Part shown: piece after piece, positions 2,717 through 14,906 of the stretch
How the letters are laid out: each line of letters begins with the position of its first letter
Numbering within the stretch: position 1 is the stretch's first letter
Assembly: GCA_030038655.1 (NCBI GenBank)
Contig: JASHSP010000042.1
Span: forward strand, 1 to 53,409
Origin: Thermoplasmata archaeon
GTDB taxonomy: Archaea; Thermoplasmatota; Thermoplasmata; Lutacidiplasmatales; UBA184
DNA length: 53,409 nt
Reading direction: 5' to 3'
Translations under genes and position numbers: made by a program
The notes under the pieces: model-generated
The model's input: the letters and a program-made list of their open reading frames with translations, nothing else
Told to the model about the DNA's origin: nothing
Database searches by the model: none

Positions 2717-3814
2717 CTAGTAAAGACGGCCGGCTTTCGCGAGAGTCCTGCCGTCGAGCGTAATCGTACCCCGGCCGAGCATCGCGAACGACGAGAACGG
2801 GATCCGAGATTTGCCCCCGGCGATCGCGTTGCCTCCGATGCCGACGAGGATCGCTCCCTCCTCGCAATCCTCGCACGGAGGGAGTTCCCGGGCCATCGGA
2901 TTCAGCCCGATGGTCAGGTAGCCGATCCGATCGCGTCCCTTGGGCGCGGCTCGGAACGCCTTTTCGAAGGTGGCACGACCAACCCCCGTGGAACGACCGG
3001 TGAGACGCCCGGCGCGGAAGCTCCAGCGGCTCTGGGCGAACATCTCGTATCGACCCATGTCGTAGACCGCCCGGTTGCTCACCAGAACGCCGGAGGCATC
3101 GCAGCCATCGAGCGCCGCAAACACCTGTCCGGAAGGGTTGCCCTCGAGCATCCCCCGGGGTTGCACCTTGGTGGCGCCTCTCGGAATCCCGGAGGCGACG
3201 ATCGGGCGGCTTCCTCGGAGAGTAATGCGTAGGTCGGTTCCGTTGGGGTGCCGAACCCGCAATTCGGAGCCGTGAGCGAGCCGATCCGCGAGGCGATTCC
3301 CCTTGACCTGCATCTGGTGCGCGTCGACCGCTCCGGCCGTAACGAGCCGAGCGCGCCATTCCGGACCACGCAATCCGAACAGCCTGGCCGTTTCATCGCT
3401 CGCGAGGCCGAGGGACATCCGATAACCTCGAAGTCGGCCCTCCCGCGCGGAAGCGTACCACTCTTCGTTGTATCCGGTGAACTTGGAGGCGAAGATCCCC
3501 AGATCGAGCGCCCGGCGCATCTCGGCCGGCCCCCAGAAGTAGATGTAGGCGGACGCCTCCTGCACCGCGGCGCGTTCCGACCGAGAAAGTCGTTGGAACG
3601 GCCCCGTCGTCCTTGCCTTGACGGCATCCCACCAGGCGGGCTCGTCCTCGAAAAGCACCGTCGGTTGGGCTCCGAGGCGGCGTGCTTCTTCCACGAAAAC
3701 GCGCGTGTACTCGAGCGTGTGATTCCAGGATTCGATGAGGACGGAATCCCCCTTCTGGACGCGAAGGTTTCTGGCCAGGAGCGCGCGGGCGAGCGAGGCC
3801 GGGGAGCCGTTCAC
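2717..3814 (-). CDS. M29 (aminopeptidase T)-like protein lacking metal ligands
   Basis: A 365-residue protein with the shape of peptidase family M29: an N-terminal LARALLARNLRVQKGDSVLIES region, a central domain, and the C-terminal IGLNPMARELPPCEDCEEGAILVGIGGN stretch that matches the family's TNP-x-A....EDEK..G..H.A.G segment. In M29 enzymes this part holds two Glu and two His/Asp metal ligands. Here the GELG Glu is GYLT, the TVHIA His is LVGIG, and the DLHWD segment is PFSSFA, so the cocatalytic metal site seems to be lost. It is probably not an aminopeptidase. The GTG at 3814 is supported by a TATA-like GTAAATAC (3835-3843) centred 25 bases upstream. Confidence 0.75.
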   Translation of the reverse strand: MNGSPASLARALLARNLRVQKGDSVLIESWNHTLEYTRVFVEEARRLGAQPTVLFEDEPAWWDAVKARTTGPFQRLSRSERAAVQEASAYIYFWGPAEMRRALDLGIFASKFTGYNEEWYASAREGRLRGYRMSLGLASDETARLFGLRGPEWRARLVTAGAVDAHQMQVKGNRLADRLAHGSELRVRHPNGTDLRITLRGSRPIVASGIPRGATKVQPRGMLEGNPSGQVFAALDGCDASGVLVSNRAVYDMGRYEMFAQSRWSFRAGRLTGRSTGVGRATFEKAFRAAPKGRDRIGYLTIGLNPMARELPPCEDCEEGAILVGIGGNAIAGGKSRIPFSSFAMLGRGTITLDGRTLAKAGRLY

Positions 3815-3834: not shown

Positions 3835-3843
3835 GTATTTACG
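3835..3843 (-). promoter_or_regulatory. TATA-like element of the M29-like gene
   Basis: On the minus strand the sequence reads CGTAAATAC, centred about 25 bases upstream of the GTG at 3814. This matches the archaeal TATA position for a leaderless transcript. Confidence 0.55.
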
Positions 3844-4120: not shown

Positions 4121-6097
4121 GTGGTCGCGTCCCGCCGGCTCGCCGCCATCATGTTCACCGACCTGGTGGGATTCACCCGGCTCGGCCAGGAGGACGAGAA
4201 TGCCGCGCTCCTCCTCCGACGGGAGCACCAAGCGCTGCTGCGCCCGATCTTCGCCGCCTTCGGTGGGCGCGAGGTGAAGACACTCGGCGACGGATTCCTG
4301 GTGGAGTTCGCGAGCGCGGTCGAGTCGGTCCGATGCGCTGTTGAGATCCAGCGGGCCATCGCCGCGCGAAACTCCGCACGCGGCCCGGAGGACCCGCTGT
4401 TGCTGCGCATCGGCCTCCACGCCGGGGACGTCGTCGAGGAGGACGGTGATGTCGTGGGCGACGCGGTGAACGTGGCTTCCCGGATCGAGCCGCTGGCAGA
4501 TCCGGGAGGCGTGTGTCTCTCCGCGACCGTCTACCAGCAGGTGAGGAACAAGCTTCCGATGGTCTTCGAGCACGTCGGGGCGCGAATCCTGAAGAACGTC
4601 CGGGAACCGGTCGAGATCTACCGGGTCGCGCTCGAAGGGCGGAGACCGACCCCTCCCCCGGCGGTGGACCATGCCCCGGAGCCCGTTCGCCTGGCGGTCT
4701 TGCCGCTGGCGAACCTGAGCACCGACCCCGACGACGTGTACTTCGCGGACGGACTGACCGACGAGCTGATCACGAGGACGTCACAGGTGCCCCAGGTCCG
4801 GGTGATTGCCCGCACCTCCGTCCAACGCTACAAGGGCTCTCCGAAGTCGATCCGGGAGGTGGGGGAAGAGCTCGGGGTCGGTGTCGCGCTCGAAGGGAGC
4901 GTGCGCAAATCGGGCCGTCAGGTTCGGATCTCGGTGCAGCTGATCGACGTCCGTTCGGAAGCGCATGTGTGGTCGATGCGGTACGACCGGCCCCTCGACG
5001 ACATCTTCGCGATTCAGGACGACATCGCCGGGCACATCGCGGGGTCCGTCGCGGCCCACCTGACCGGCCAGGCCCCGACAGGGGCACTGCCGCCCGTGCC
5101 CGGTGGCTCGGAGACATCCGACATGGAAGCGTACTCGCTGTTCCTTCACGGCCGCCAGCTCTTCGGGGAGAAGGGCTCGATCGAGGCGATTCGAACCGCT
5201 CTCTCCCTCTTCGAAGCCGCCGCCGTACGGGATCCCGGGTTCGCCCGCGCGCACGTCCTGATCGCCGAGACGCTACTTTGGCTCGCGACGGAGGGCGCCG
5301 TCGCGTTCCAAGAGGCCGAGGCGCGGGCGGAAGACGAACTTCGGCGGGCTCTCCGGCTGAACGACCGGATCGCGGAGGCCCATTCGGTCCAGGCGGCCCT
5401 CTACCTGGGATCGGACCGGTTTGACGAGTGTGAGAGGGAGGCCCGTCGAGCGATGGAACTGAACCCAAGCCTCGCGGACCCGTACCGGTGGCTCGCGCAG
5501 CTCGAGGCGGGAACCGGTCGCATCCACGAGGCGGTCGGCCTTCTCGAGGCCGCACGACTTCTGAACCCCGACGACGTCAACGTCCTGTCGTTCCTGGGGC
5601 GCGCCCTGGCATACGCCGGCCGGGAGGCCGACGCGGTCGCCTTCTGGGAGGCGTCGAAGTCGCGCATTCGCTATCGGACGAATGCGCACATGAGCGAGTT
5701 CTACCTCGGGAAGGGTGACCTCGCAAGGGCGGAGACGTCGGTCCAGGAGCTGGAGCGCGTTCGCCCCAACAGCCCCTGGACGTACGTCTACCGCGGGGAA
5801 CTCGAGGTGCGCAAGGGGAACCCGCAGATGGCCCGCCGCCTCATCGAGCAGCTCCGAGAGCGGCAGAAGCGCGGGGAGATGGTGGTGTTCTTCATCGGCT
5901 TTCTGGAGTACGCTCTGGGCGAGATGGACGAATTCGTCGAGTCCATGGAAGAGGCCCTTCGGTGCCGGGTGTTGCCCCTCCTGGAGCTGCTCTACTCGCC
6001 CCTCTACGCGGCCGCGCGGGCGGATCCCCGCATCCAGGACATCCTTCGCCGCCAGCGAGAAACCCAGAGTCGGCGGGCACCGGGCGGACCGGGATAG
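4121..6097 (+). CDS. Class III adenylate cyclase with TolB-like domain and TPR repeats
   Basis: A 658-residue multidomain protein. Residues 1-165 are a class III cyclase catalytic domain: the metal Asp14 (AIMFTDLVGF) and Asp57 (KTLGDGF), the adenine-selecting Lys53 and the Asp of DGDVVG, and the transition-state Asn and Arg of VNVASRIE are all present. Residues 185-300 form a TolB N-terminal-like domain (LAVLPLANLSTDPDDVYFADGLTDELI). The rest (about 320-650) is helical TPR repeats, for example EREARRAMELNPSLADPYRWLAQL. There is no transmembrane segment, so it is cytosolic. It should make cAMP from ATP. The GTG at 4121 is preceded by a TATA-like GCTTAATCC centred 27 bases upstream. A 649-residue paralogue lies at 12957-14906. 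Confidence 0.9.
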   Translation: MVASRRLAAIMFTDLVGFTRLGQEDENAALLLRREHQALLRPIFAAFGGREVKTLGDGFLVEFASAVESVRCAVEIQRAIAARNSARGPEDPLLLRIGLHAGDVVEEDGDVVGDAVNVASRIEPLADPGGVCLSATVYQQVRNKLPMVFEHVGARILKNVREPVEIYRVALEGRRPTPPPAVDHAPEPVRLAVLPLANLSTDPDDVYFADGLTDELITRTSQVPQVRVIARTSVQRYKGSPKSIREVGEELGVGVALEGSVRKSGRQVRISVQLIDVRSEAHVWSMRYDRPLDDIFAIQDDIAGHIAGSVAAHLTGQAPTGALPPVPGGSETSDMEAYSLFLHGRQLFGEKGSIEAIRTALSLFEAAAVRDPGFARAHVLIAETLLWLATEGAVAFQEAEARAEDELRRALRLNDRIAEAHSVQAALYLGSDRFDECEREARRAMELNPSLADPYRWLAQLEAGTGRIHEAVGLLEAARLLNPDDVNVLSFLGRALAYAGREADAVAFWEASKSRIRYRTNAHMSEFYLGKGDLARAETSVQELERVRPNSPWTYVYRGELEVRKGNPQMARRLIEQLRERQKRGEMVVFFIGFLEYALGEMDEFVESMEEALRCRVLPLLELLYSPLYAAARADPRIQDILRRQRETQSRRAPGGPG

Positions 6098-12956: not shown

Positions 12957-14906
12957 TCACGAAGAGCGCGGAAGGGCCAGGCCCACGGATTCCAGGAGCG
13001 ACCTGAGACGGGGATCTTTTCGAACTTCGGCGAAGAGAGGCGAGTACATCAGTTGGGGCGCGGGGAGTCTGTGGTCCTTCGCTGCGGCCGACATGTGCTC
13101 GAAGAATCTGTCCGCCTCCCCGAGCGCCAGATAGACGAAGCCTGCTCGAGTCGCCCCCACCCCGCCGGATTGTTGGGGGGAATCCAACTTTGCGATCATC
13201 CGCATCGCCGCGGACCGGTCACCCTTGAGGGCGGCGAGGTACCCCAGATACAGGTAGGTGTCGAGATCGGTAGGGCTAAGCCTCTCAACCTCGCTCACCA
13301 TCTCGCCGGCCTTCTGCAAGTCCCCCTTCGCGAAGTAGTAATCGGCCATCCGGCGGTACGTGTTGGAGGGATCCAAGTGGAGCGTCCGCTTCCAATGCTC
13401 CAGGGCTTCCGCATCCCTCCCCGCGTAAAAGTACGCGGCCCCGAGAATCCGGATCGTGCGGGGGGAAAGGGGGTCCAGCTGGTAGGCCATCTCGCTCTGA
13501 CGGACCAATTCTCCCAAGTTCCCCTTCAAGGACTCGATACTCCCCAGCACGATGTGTACGTCCGCGAGGTTGGGGTTCAGTTCCAGCGCCTCCCTCGCCT
13601 CCTTCTCTTGCATCTCGAGTGGGTCGTCCGCCATGGCGGACAGCTCGGCAAGCACGGCATGCGCTTCGGCGAGGTCGGGAGCCAGGGTGCGGGCCCTCTC
13701 TGCGGCGGCCCGACCGTGTTCGATGGCTTCCGGCCAAGGTATCAAGCCTCGGAATCCCAGATTCCGATAGCAGATCGCTAGGCCGGCGAGCGCCCGGGAA
13801 AAGGAAGGGTCCTTCGCAACGGCGTGCTCGAAGAGTCTCAGCGATTGCCGTAGCGCCTGCTCTTCTCGGCGCCAGAGGAGCGCGCTCCCCTGAAGGAAGT
13901 ACAGGTAGGCCTCGGTGTCCTCGGTCCCTCTCGGACGTGCGACCGGAGCGGCCGCCGCCAGCAGTTCGCTCGGAAGCGACTCGGTGACCTTGGCCGCGAT
14001 CGCGCTCTGGACCGCAAAAATGTCGTCCAAGGTGTCATCGTAGGTCGATGCCGACAGATGCGCCTCGGAAGCGACGTCGATCACTTGGACCGTGACCCGG
14101 ATCCGGTTCCCGACCTTCCGGACGCTCCCCTCGACGGCCGTCCCGACCCCGAGCTCTCGACCGATTTCGGAGACGTGCTTCTTGCCCCCCTTGTAGGCCA
14201 TTACGGAGGTCCGCGCGATGACTTGGAGCCCCTTCACTAGCGAGAGGCTCCCGATCAATTCCTCGGTGAGTCCGTCGGAGAAGTATTCGTCATTCGGGTC
14301 CGGACTCATGCTCACGAACGGGAGGACGGCGACACGGTTCCTATCCAGGGGGATCGAAGCGCGGCCGGTGGAAGGGAGTTCCCGCGGGGTCCGAGTCAGC
14401 AGGAGCCGGTAGACATCGACCGGGAACAGCACGCCCTTGAGTGCTCTCGGTTCCAGCTTCTCCAGTCGGTTTCTGATCTTGTTCCGGACAAGGCCGAACA
14501 CCGGCTCGGAGATGCAGATTCCTCCCGGATCCGCGAGCGGTTCGATCCGGGACGCGACGTTGACGGAGTCTCCAAAGACGTCTCCGGCCCGCTCCTCGAT
14601 GTCCCCGAGGTGGACACCGATTCGGATCCGGATGGGCTCGCTCTCCGGTTGCGAGTTGCGGGCGAGCAGACGTTCCTGGACCTCGATCGCGCATTCCACG
14701 GCCCGCAGGGCGCTGTCGAACACGACCAGGAAACCGTCGCCGGTCGACTTGATCTCGCGACCCTGGTGGGAGGAGAAGAGCGGTCGGACGATCGCCTCCT
14801 GCTCGTCCCGCAGCCGGAGTGCGTTCGCTTCGTCGACCTGAGCGGCGGCCGTCGAACCGACCGTGTCCGTGAACATGATGGCGGCGAGCCGACGTGTCGA
14901 GGCCAC
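12957..14906 (-). CDS. Second class III adenylate cyclase-TolB-like-TPR protein
   Basis: A 649-residue paralogue of the 4121-6097 protein with the same order of domains. The cyclase domain has AAIMFTDTVGST (first metal Asp), REIKSTGDGFLVVF (specificity Lys and second Asp), GDVFG (specificity Asp) and VNVASRIE (Asn, Arg). The TolB-like domain reads VAVLPFVSMSPDPNDEYFSDGLTEELI, and TPR repeats fill the rest (for example LVRQSEMAYQLDPLSPRTIRILGAAYFYAGRDAEALEHW). The GTG at 14906 (MASTRRLAAIMF) aligns with the paralogue's start and has a TATA element 25 bases upstream; the track ATG at 14921 would lie too close to that element. It is predicted to make cAMP. Both copies seem catalytically intact. 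Confidence 0.9.
   Translation of the reverse strand: MASTRRLAAIMFTDTVGSTAAAQVDEANALRLRDEQEAIVRPLFSSHQGREIKSTGDGFLVVFDSALRAVECAIEVQERLLARNSQPESEPIRIRIGVHLGDIEERAGDVFGDSVNVASRIEPLADPGGICISEPVFGLVRNKIRNRLEKLEPRALKGVLFPVDVYRLLLTRTPRELPSTGRASIPLDRNRVAVLPFVSMSPDPNDEYFSDGLTEELIGSLSLVKGLQVIARTSVMAYKGGKKHVSEIGRELGVGTAVEGSVRKVGNRIRVTVQVIDVASEAHLSASTYDDTLDDIFAVQSAIAAKVTESLPSELLAAAAPVARPRGTEDTEAYLYFLQGSALLWRREEQALRQSLRLFEHAVAKDPSFSRALAGLAICYRNLGFRGLIPWPEAIEHGRAAAERARTLAPDLAEAHAVLAELSAMADDPLEMQEKEAREALELNPNLADVHIVLGSIESLKGNLGELVRQSEMAYQLDPLSPRTIRILGAAYFYAGRDAEALEHWKRTLHLDPSNTYRRMADYYFAKGDLQKAGEMVSEVERLSPTDLDTYLYLGYLAALKGDRSAAMRMIAKLDSPQQSGGVGATRAGFVYLALGEADRFFEHMSAAAKDHRLPAPQLMYSPLFAEVRKDPRLRSLLESVGLALPRSS

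Follow-up and report, generated by a model that had tools for sequence, protein, structure and literature searches.

The closest described systems belong to, derive from or share the fold of the M29 aminopeptidases (AmpT, PDB 2ayi; AmpS, 1zjc; PepS, 4icq, 4icr and 4ics; Pfam PF02073), in which five ligands, E-E-H-H-D, define a dinuclear metal centre. In the Listeria enzyme AmpII (LmAmpII), replacing E250, E316, H345, Y352, H378 or D380 singly by Ala abolished activity, and Y352, which is Y355 in AmpS, is the catalytic Tyr (PMC7023490). CgnE, from crocagin biosynthesis, is derived from M29, has lost two of the metal ligands, is metal-free and binds the precursor peptide, apparently without catalytic activity. 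It acts beside its active homologue CgnB; both are M29-derived peptide binders, monomers without much of the N-terminal part, and are encoded in RiPP gene clusters (PMC10070186). NicX (7cn3) is a 2,5-dihydroxypyridine 5,6-dioxygenase with the Fe(II) ligands His265, Ser302, His318 and Asp320, and in its N-terminal third Leu104 and His105 position the substrate (PMC7910607).

The window, a 53,409-nucleotide stretch of DNA from a Thermoplasmata archaeon, holds a gene at 2717-3814, where the sequence-only reading of this DNA placed it; the gene is on the minus strand, has no internal stops, starts with GTG and encodes 365 amino acids. The kinship with aminopeptidase T that the same reading proposed is borne out at several levels. 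The protein matches PF02073 at 32.3 bits (cut-off 27), with the best-scoring stretch in the N-terminal part (residues 7-96), and 57 of 60 members of its gene family match at an E-value of 0.01 or better. An NCBIfam search with the window protein returned no family and phmmer with this single protein returned no match in the PDB, so that a profile was required; the family profile matched NicX with an E-value of 4e-8. When the profile of the 60 family members (A2) was compared with one built from 33 canonical Thermoplasmata M29 proteins (A3), the two aligned over 347 columns with a probability of 100 and an E-value of 9e-45. AlphaFold2, given the family alignment, modelled the window protein with a mean pLDDT of 96.3 and a pTM of 0.93, and the only full-length PDB matches that Foldseek found with this model were PepS, AmpS and AmpT (E 1e-16 to 8e-19) and NicX (E 6e-18). 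A control model of a canonical Thermoplasmata M29 protein found the same PDB entries with E-values of 2e-22 to 1e-25, and its TM-score to the peptidases reached 0.83, as against 0.69 at best for the window model. Foldseek matches of the N-terminal domain region to PLP enzymes and other Rossmann-like proteins, with a TM-score of about 0.2, were set aside as generic. As far as a predicted structure can show, the two-domain fold common to M29 and NicX is retained, and homology to the M29 peptidases, at about 365 versus about 410 residues, is near full length.

The metal centre of M29 lies in the C-terminal beta-rich domain, which in the window protein, from the alignments and site rates, comprises residues 166-365 (2720-3319, minus strand). 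The Gly, Asn and Pro residues of its scaffold are kept, but the ligands are gone. In a MAFFT alignment the canonical E-E-H-H-D columns fall on Q230 (the Glu of GEV; 3125-3127), Y299 (the Glu of GExG; 2918-2920), L323 (the His of IHIA; 2846-2848) and, in S341-S342-F343 (the HxD of LHWD; 2786-2794), on S341 and F343, all on the minus strand. The sequence-only reading had listed four of these losses and had the motifs in the right places, but it overlooked ligand 1: the Glu in P-x-G-E-V, numbered Glu250 in Listeria AmpII, has become Q230. The profile-profile comparison agrees, and by that comparison the placement of the motifs is unambiguous. Because His occurs in the window protein only at positions 32, 166, 181 and 189, the two His ligands cannot sit elsewhere in the C-terminal domain. 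The NicX His and Asp ligands are likewise absent, their columns being taken as those of the M29 H-H-D, namely L323, S341 and F343.

We use "own family" for the GTDB-type family of Thermoplasmata archaea that contains the window's genome. Its homologues repeat the losses: 61 of 62 sequences have none of the five ligands and the remaining one keeps a single ligand. Of the 34 canonical sequences aligned with them, none lacks any of the five. Given these counts, the absence of the ligands, as read from the alignment, is neither chance nor sequencing error. The alignments thus show a window protein that has lost its dinuclear metal centre and is, since the defining E-E-H-H-D feature was tested for and is absent, an M29 member by homology and fold and not in the functional sense. 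One such change suffices to inactivate LmAmpII, whereas the window protein has lost five of five ligands, from columns that are no longer constrained; loss of the M29 peptidase chemistry is thus strongly supported.

Site rates, estimated separately for the ligandless and canonical sets, tell where constraint lies in each. In canonical M29 proteins few columns evolve as slowly as those of the five ligands (percentile 1-3), whereas in the ligandless set columns 1 to 5 stand at percentiles 81, 77, 54, 80 and 65, ordinary to fast, with F, W, T, L, S and other residues in the homologues. The opposite change is seen in the N-terminal Rossmann-like domain, residues 1-165 (3320-3814, minus strand), which we delimited by conservation, site rates and predicted secondary structure. 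Its conserved residues are E28, W30, H32, R45, E56-D57-E58, W62, Y90, G95-P96, E/D98, R101, W119-Y120, R129, R132 and W153. Between the canonical and the ligandless set the rates of E28, R45, E56, D57, E58, W62, Y90, R101, W119, R129 and R132 fall from percentile 33-93 to 1-13, those of E28, R45, D57, E58, R101 and R132 to 1-6, although these residues were picked for their conservation in the ligandless clade and only the domain-wide tests are unbiased. In those tests the N-terminal domain accounts for 19 of the 40 slowest sites in the ligandless set and for 8 of 40 in the canonical set (Fisher p 0.017), and the change in rate rank differs between the N- and C-terminal domains with p 7e-6. Within single canonical subfamilies, where mean identity is much higher (0.64-0.70 vs 0.41), the ligands are conserved at 100%, and at the N-domain positions the residue differs between subfamilies and is often mixed. 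A point to the contrary is that some of the canonical relatives conserve H32 and residue 98 as well. By these rate comparisons, selective constraint is shown to have moved from the metal centre to the N-terminal Rossmann-like domain.

The N-terminal domain is predicted to have strands at residues 24-30, 50-56, 89-93 and 129-133. In this predicted secondary structure W30/H32, E56-E58, G95-D98 and R129/R132 lie at or near the C-terminal ends of strands, which is the usual ligand-binding or active-site edge of a Rossmann-like sheet. From this arrangement we infer that the conserved residues would form one pocket. Our preferred reading, to which we give a probability of roughly 0.6, is that the window protein is an M29-derived pseudopeptidase, a metal-independent binding protein that uses a crevice in its N-terminal domain. 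The dinuclear metal centre is gone, and its place as the functional site would have been taken by a crevice, acidic and aromatic in character, along the C-terminal edge of the N-domain strands. E28, W30 and H32 of strand 1, E56-D57-E58 after strand 2, G95-P96-D98 after strand 3 and R129 and R132 of strand 4 would build it, with W62, R101, W119 and Y120 close by in sequence, and what it holds, in the former cavity between the domains, may be a small ligand that is cationic or resembles a peptide. We conclude, on the ligand columns, that the protein should be classed as neither a metalloprotein nor an M29-type peptidase; it probably binds something instead of cutting peptides.

CgnE, compared by its description, appears to be the closest precedent: like CgnE, the window protein has an M29-derived fold and has lost metal ligands. 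It differs from CgnB and CgnE in being archaeal, in keeping and conserving the N-terminal domain and in having lost all the ligands. No RiPP gene cluster was seen around the window family; the neighbours of the window gene are a VOC (glyoxalase-family) protein and a cyclase-TPR protein. Another point of comparison is a canonical subfamily of Thermoplasmata M29 proteins with the pattern GGKN...LHWD (loci L102-L104, L113, L115 and L116), among the highest-scoring ligand-bearing relatives, which shares the scaffold motifs GLNP/GINP and GGxN with the window family but keeps E-E-H-H-D and is without most of the conserved N-domain residues.

The sequence-only reading had proposed a non-peptidase role such as binding or regulation. 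Binding or regulation is indeed the likeliest class of function, but the same residues leave catalysis relocated to the N-terminal domain as the main rival, in that the conserved E, D, R and H there would suit catalysis no less than binding. In that case the protein would be an enzyme with a metal-free, or differently metallated, active site in the N-domain crevice and with the C-terminal domain as a scaffold. E28, H32, D57, E58, R101, R129 and R132, all newly constrained, are the kinds of residue that catalytic sites use, several of the newly constrained residues lie at the C-terminal ends of parallel strands, the edge where Rossmann active sites are found, and one group of paralogues adjoins urocanase. 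NicX, with a fold in common with the window protein and a chemistry different from that of M29, is a precedent for such a change (PMC7910607). Nonetheless, searches with the N-terminal domain matched none of the known catalytic motifs or families, conservation of H32 within the own family reaches only 79%, and no consistent metabolic operon was seen around 73 family genes; we consider such an enzyme somewhat unlikely.

Returning to the binding pseudopeptidase, its paralogues could serve different ligands or partners, and their surroundings bear on this. No universal neighbour was found around the 73 family genes. The window gene is followed after 264 bases by a VOC gene of the same strand, and upstream, at a distance of 307 bases, stands a divergent class III cyclase-TPR gene; VOC and class III cyclase genes recur beside some family members, each at few loci. 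One orthologue group, C117, lies in a conserved cluster with a GNAT acetyltransferase, an unknown protein of about 450 residues and a methylpurine-DNA glycosylase, and another, C85, adjoins urocanase at L049 (in the window's own genome, C85), L065 and L158. Urocanase belongs to histidine degradation. Because the C117 and C85 groups differ in their neighbours, separate roles for the paralogues are suggested.

Some further details of these loci can be recorded. The C117 group was found at L122 (own genome, C117), L040, L042, L046, L074, L108 and L157; the protein of about 450 residues (L108:4063-5439) has no Pfam match, and an Sm-like gene and others are often near the cluster, with the gene set incomplete or uncalled at some loci. 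At L049 and L065 the ligandless M29-like gene is 23-52 bases downstream of urocanase on the same strand. In three cases two ligandless M29-like genes are close together, in tandem at L036, with one gene between them at L055 and on opposite strands at L069. The window itself has, within 9 kb of each other, a pair of genes of the class III cyclase type whose cyclase domains are N-terminal, at 4121-6097 (with TPR repeats) and 12957-14876.

Pseudopeptidases can also work as regulatory subunits or chaperones that pair with an active enzyme. M29 enzymes are dimers (PMC7023490), which would allow an inactive protein to join an active one, and CgnE does work alongside its active homologue CgnB (PMC10070186). 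A canonical-profile search of 20 own-family genomes, in which the positive control worked, gave no canonical M29 motif in the 30 matches fetched. We therefore rejected a heterodimer with an active M29 protein of the same genome, which is unlikely in these assemblies, and a stable partner gene was not found around the 73 family genes either. Pairing of this kind is in our judgement quite improbable.

Ligandless homologues are common in this lineage. In a search of 60 relatives, 35 of 36 genomes of the same genus had homologues, with up to eight matches per genome, some of which are contig-end fragments; the window's own genome has five matches, and own-family genomes have up to eight paralogues. 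A scan of genome contigs returned one close relative only (L004, 60% identity). A profile search of 293 genomes across the phylum scored 240 up to 529 bits in the own family and at most 117 bits in the other matches listed, a list that contains none of the genomes with ligandless relatives from other families and so has no bearing on these. Other Thermoplasmata families (f16, f20, f25, f28 and others) do hold ligandless relatives: 15 were examined, of which eight keep one ligand, mostly the first Glu, and seven keep none. The ligand-bearing M29 proteins, some in the same genomes (e.g. L113 in G052), keep all five. A single remaining Glu is the most that can be said for a metallopeptidase with misaligned ligands or ligands replaced by nearby residues, a reading that we regard as barely credible for the window protein given a C-terminal domain without His after residue 189, ex-ligand columns of mixed residues evolving at ordinary to fast rates and the unambiguous profile alignment.

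In an 82-row tree built without the ligand columns, for which the program flagged differences in letter make-up and two long rows (L114 and L121), one branch with an SH-aLRT support of 100 separates the 62 ligandless rows from the 20 canonical rows. Because there is one branch with a support of 100 and ligandless homologues are many, the loss of the ligands is, on this tree, old and common to the clade, and is no private accident or decay of a single gene. By sequence criteria, total loss of the ligands, a single branch and the relocation of constraint together define a clade of M29-fold pseudopeptidases. A wider history can be put forward tentatively, in which the metallopeptidase centre was abandoned class-wide, a new site, possibly catalytic, arose in the other domain, and up to eight paralogues with different roles followed in a lineage without a detectable active M29 protein.

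Because proteins of this kind score above the M29 cut-off, annotation would label them aminopeptidases and overstate the capacity of these uncultured archaea for peptide degradation. The family also offers a clean natural experiment in the relocation of a site, one fold and one branch, in which five ligand positions are no longer constrained and other residues have come under constraint in the other domain. For the same reason, function and switch can be tested directly by mutating a few residues.

The gene also appears to be in use. In the closest family pairs dN/dS (Nei-Gojobori) is 0.16-0.28, and the window gene compared with its relative at 60% identity gives about 0.32, dS being near 1. 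A TATA-like box, TAAATA (3836-3841, minus strand), begins at -27 from the GTG, and AT content peaks at -25 to -27 across the 57 family genes whose upstream DNA could be used; in archaea such a pattern suggests a leaderless mRNA that starts at the GTG. Loss of active-site residues may be a first stage of decay, but open frames, the dN/dS values of close relatives, the promoter AT peak, the confident fold and many intact paralogues make a decaying pseudogene extremely improbable, and the selection data rule out decay across the family. As far as sequence comparison can establish it, the gene family is intact, under selection and expanded in this archaeal lineage. Purifying selection, the promoter, the expansion and a very confidently predicted fold support the view that the window protein still does something. 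Apart from this clade, the NicX-like M29-fold proteins of other Thermoplasmata (L156, L161, L118, L119 and L123) seem to be short of some ligands; their ligand strings, such as ERSHE and EKNHL, may reflect separate partial losses or shifts in the alignment.
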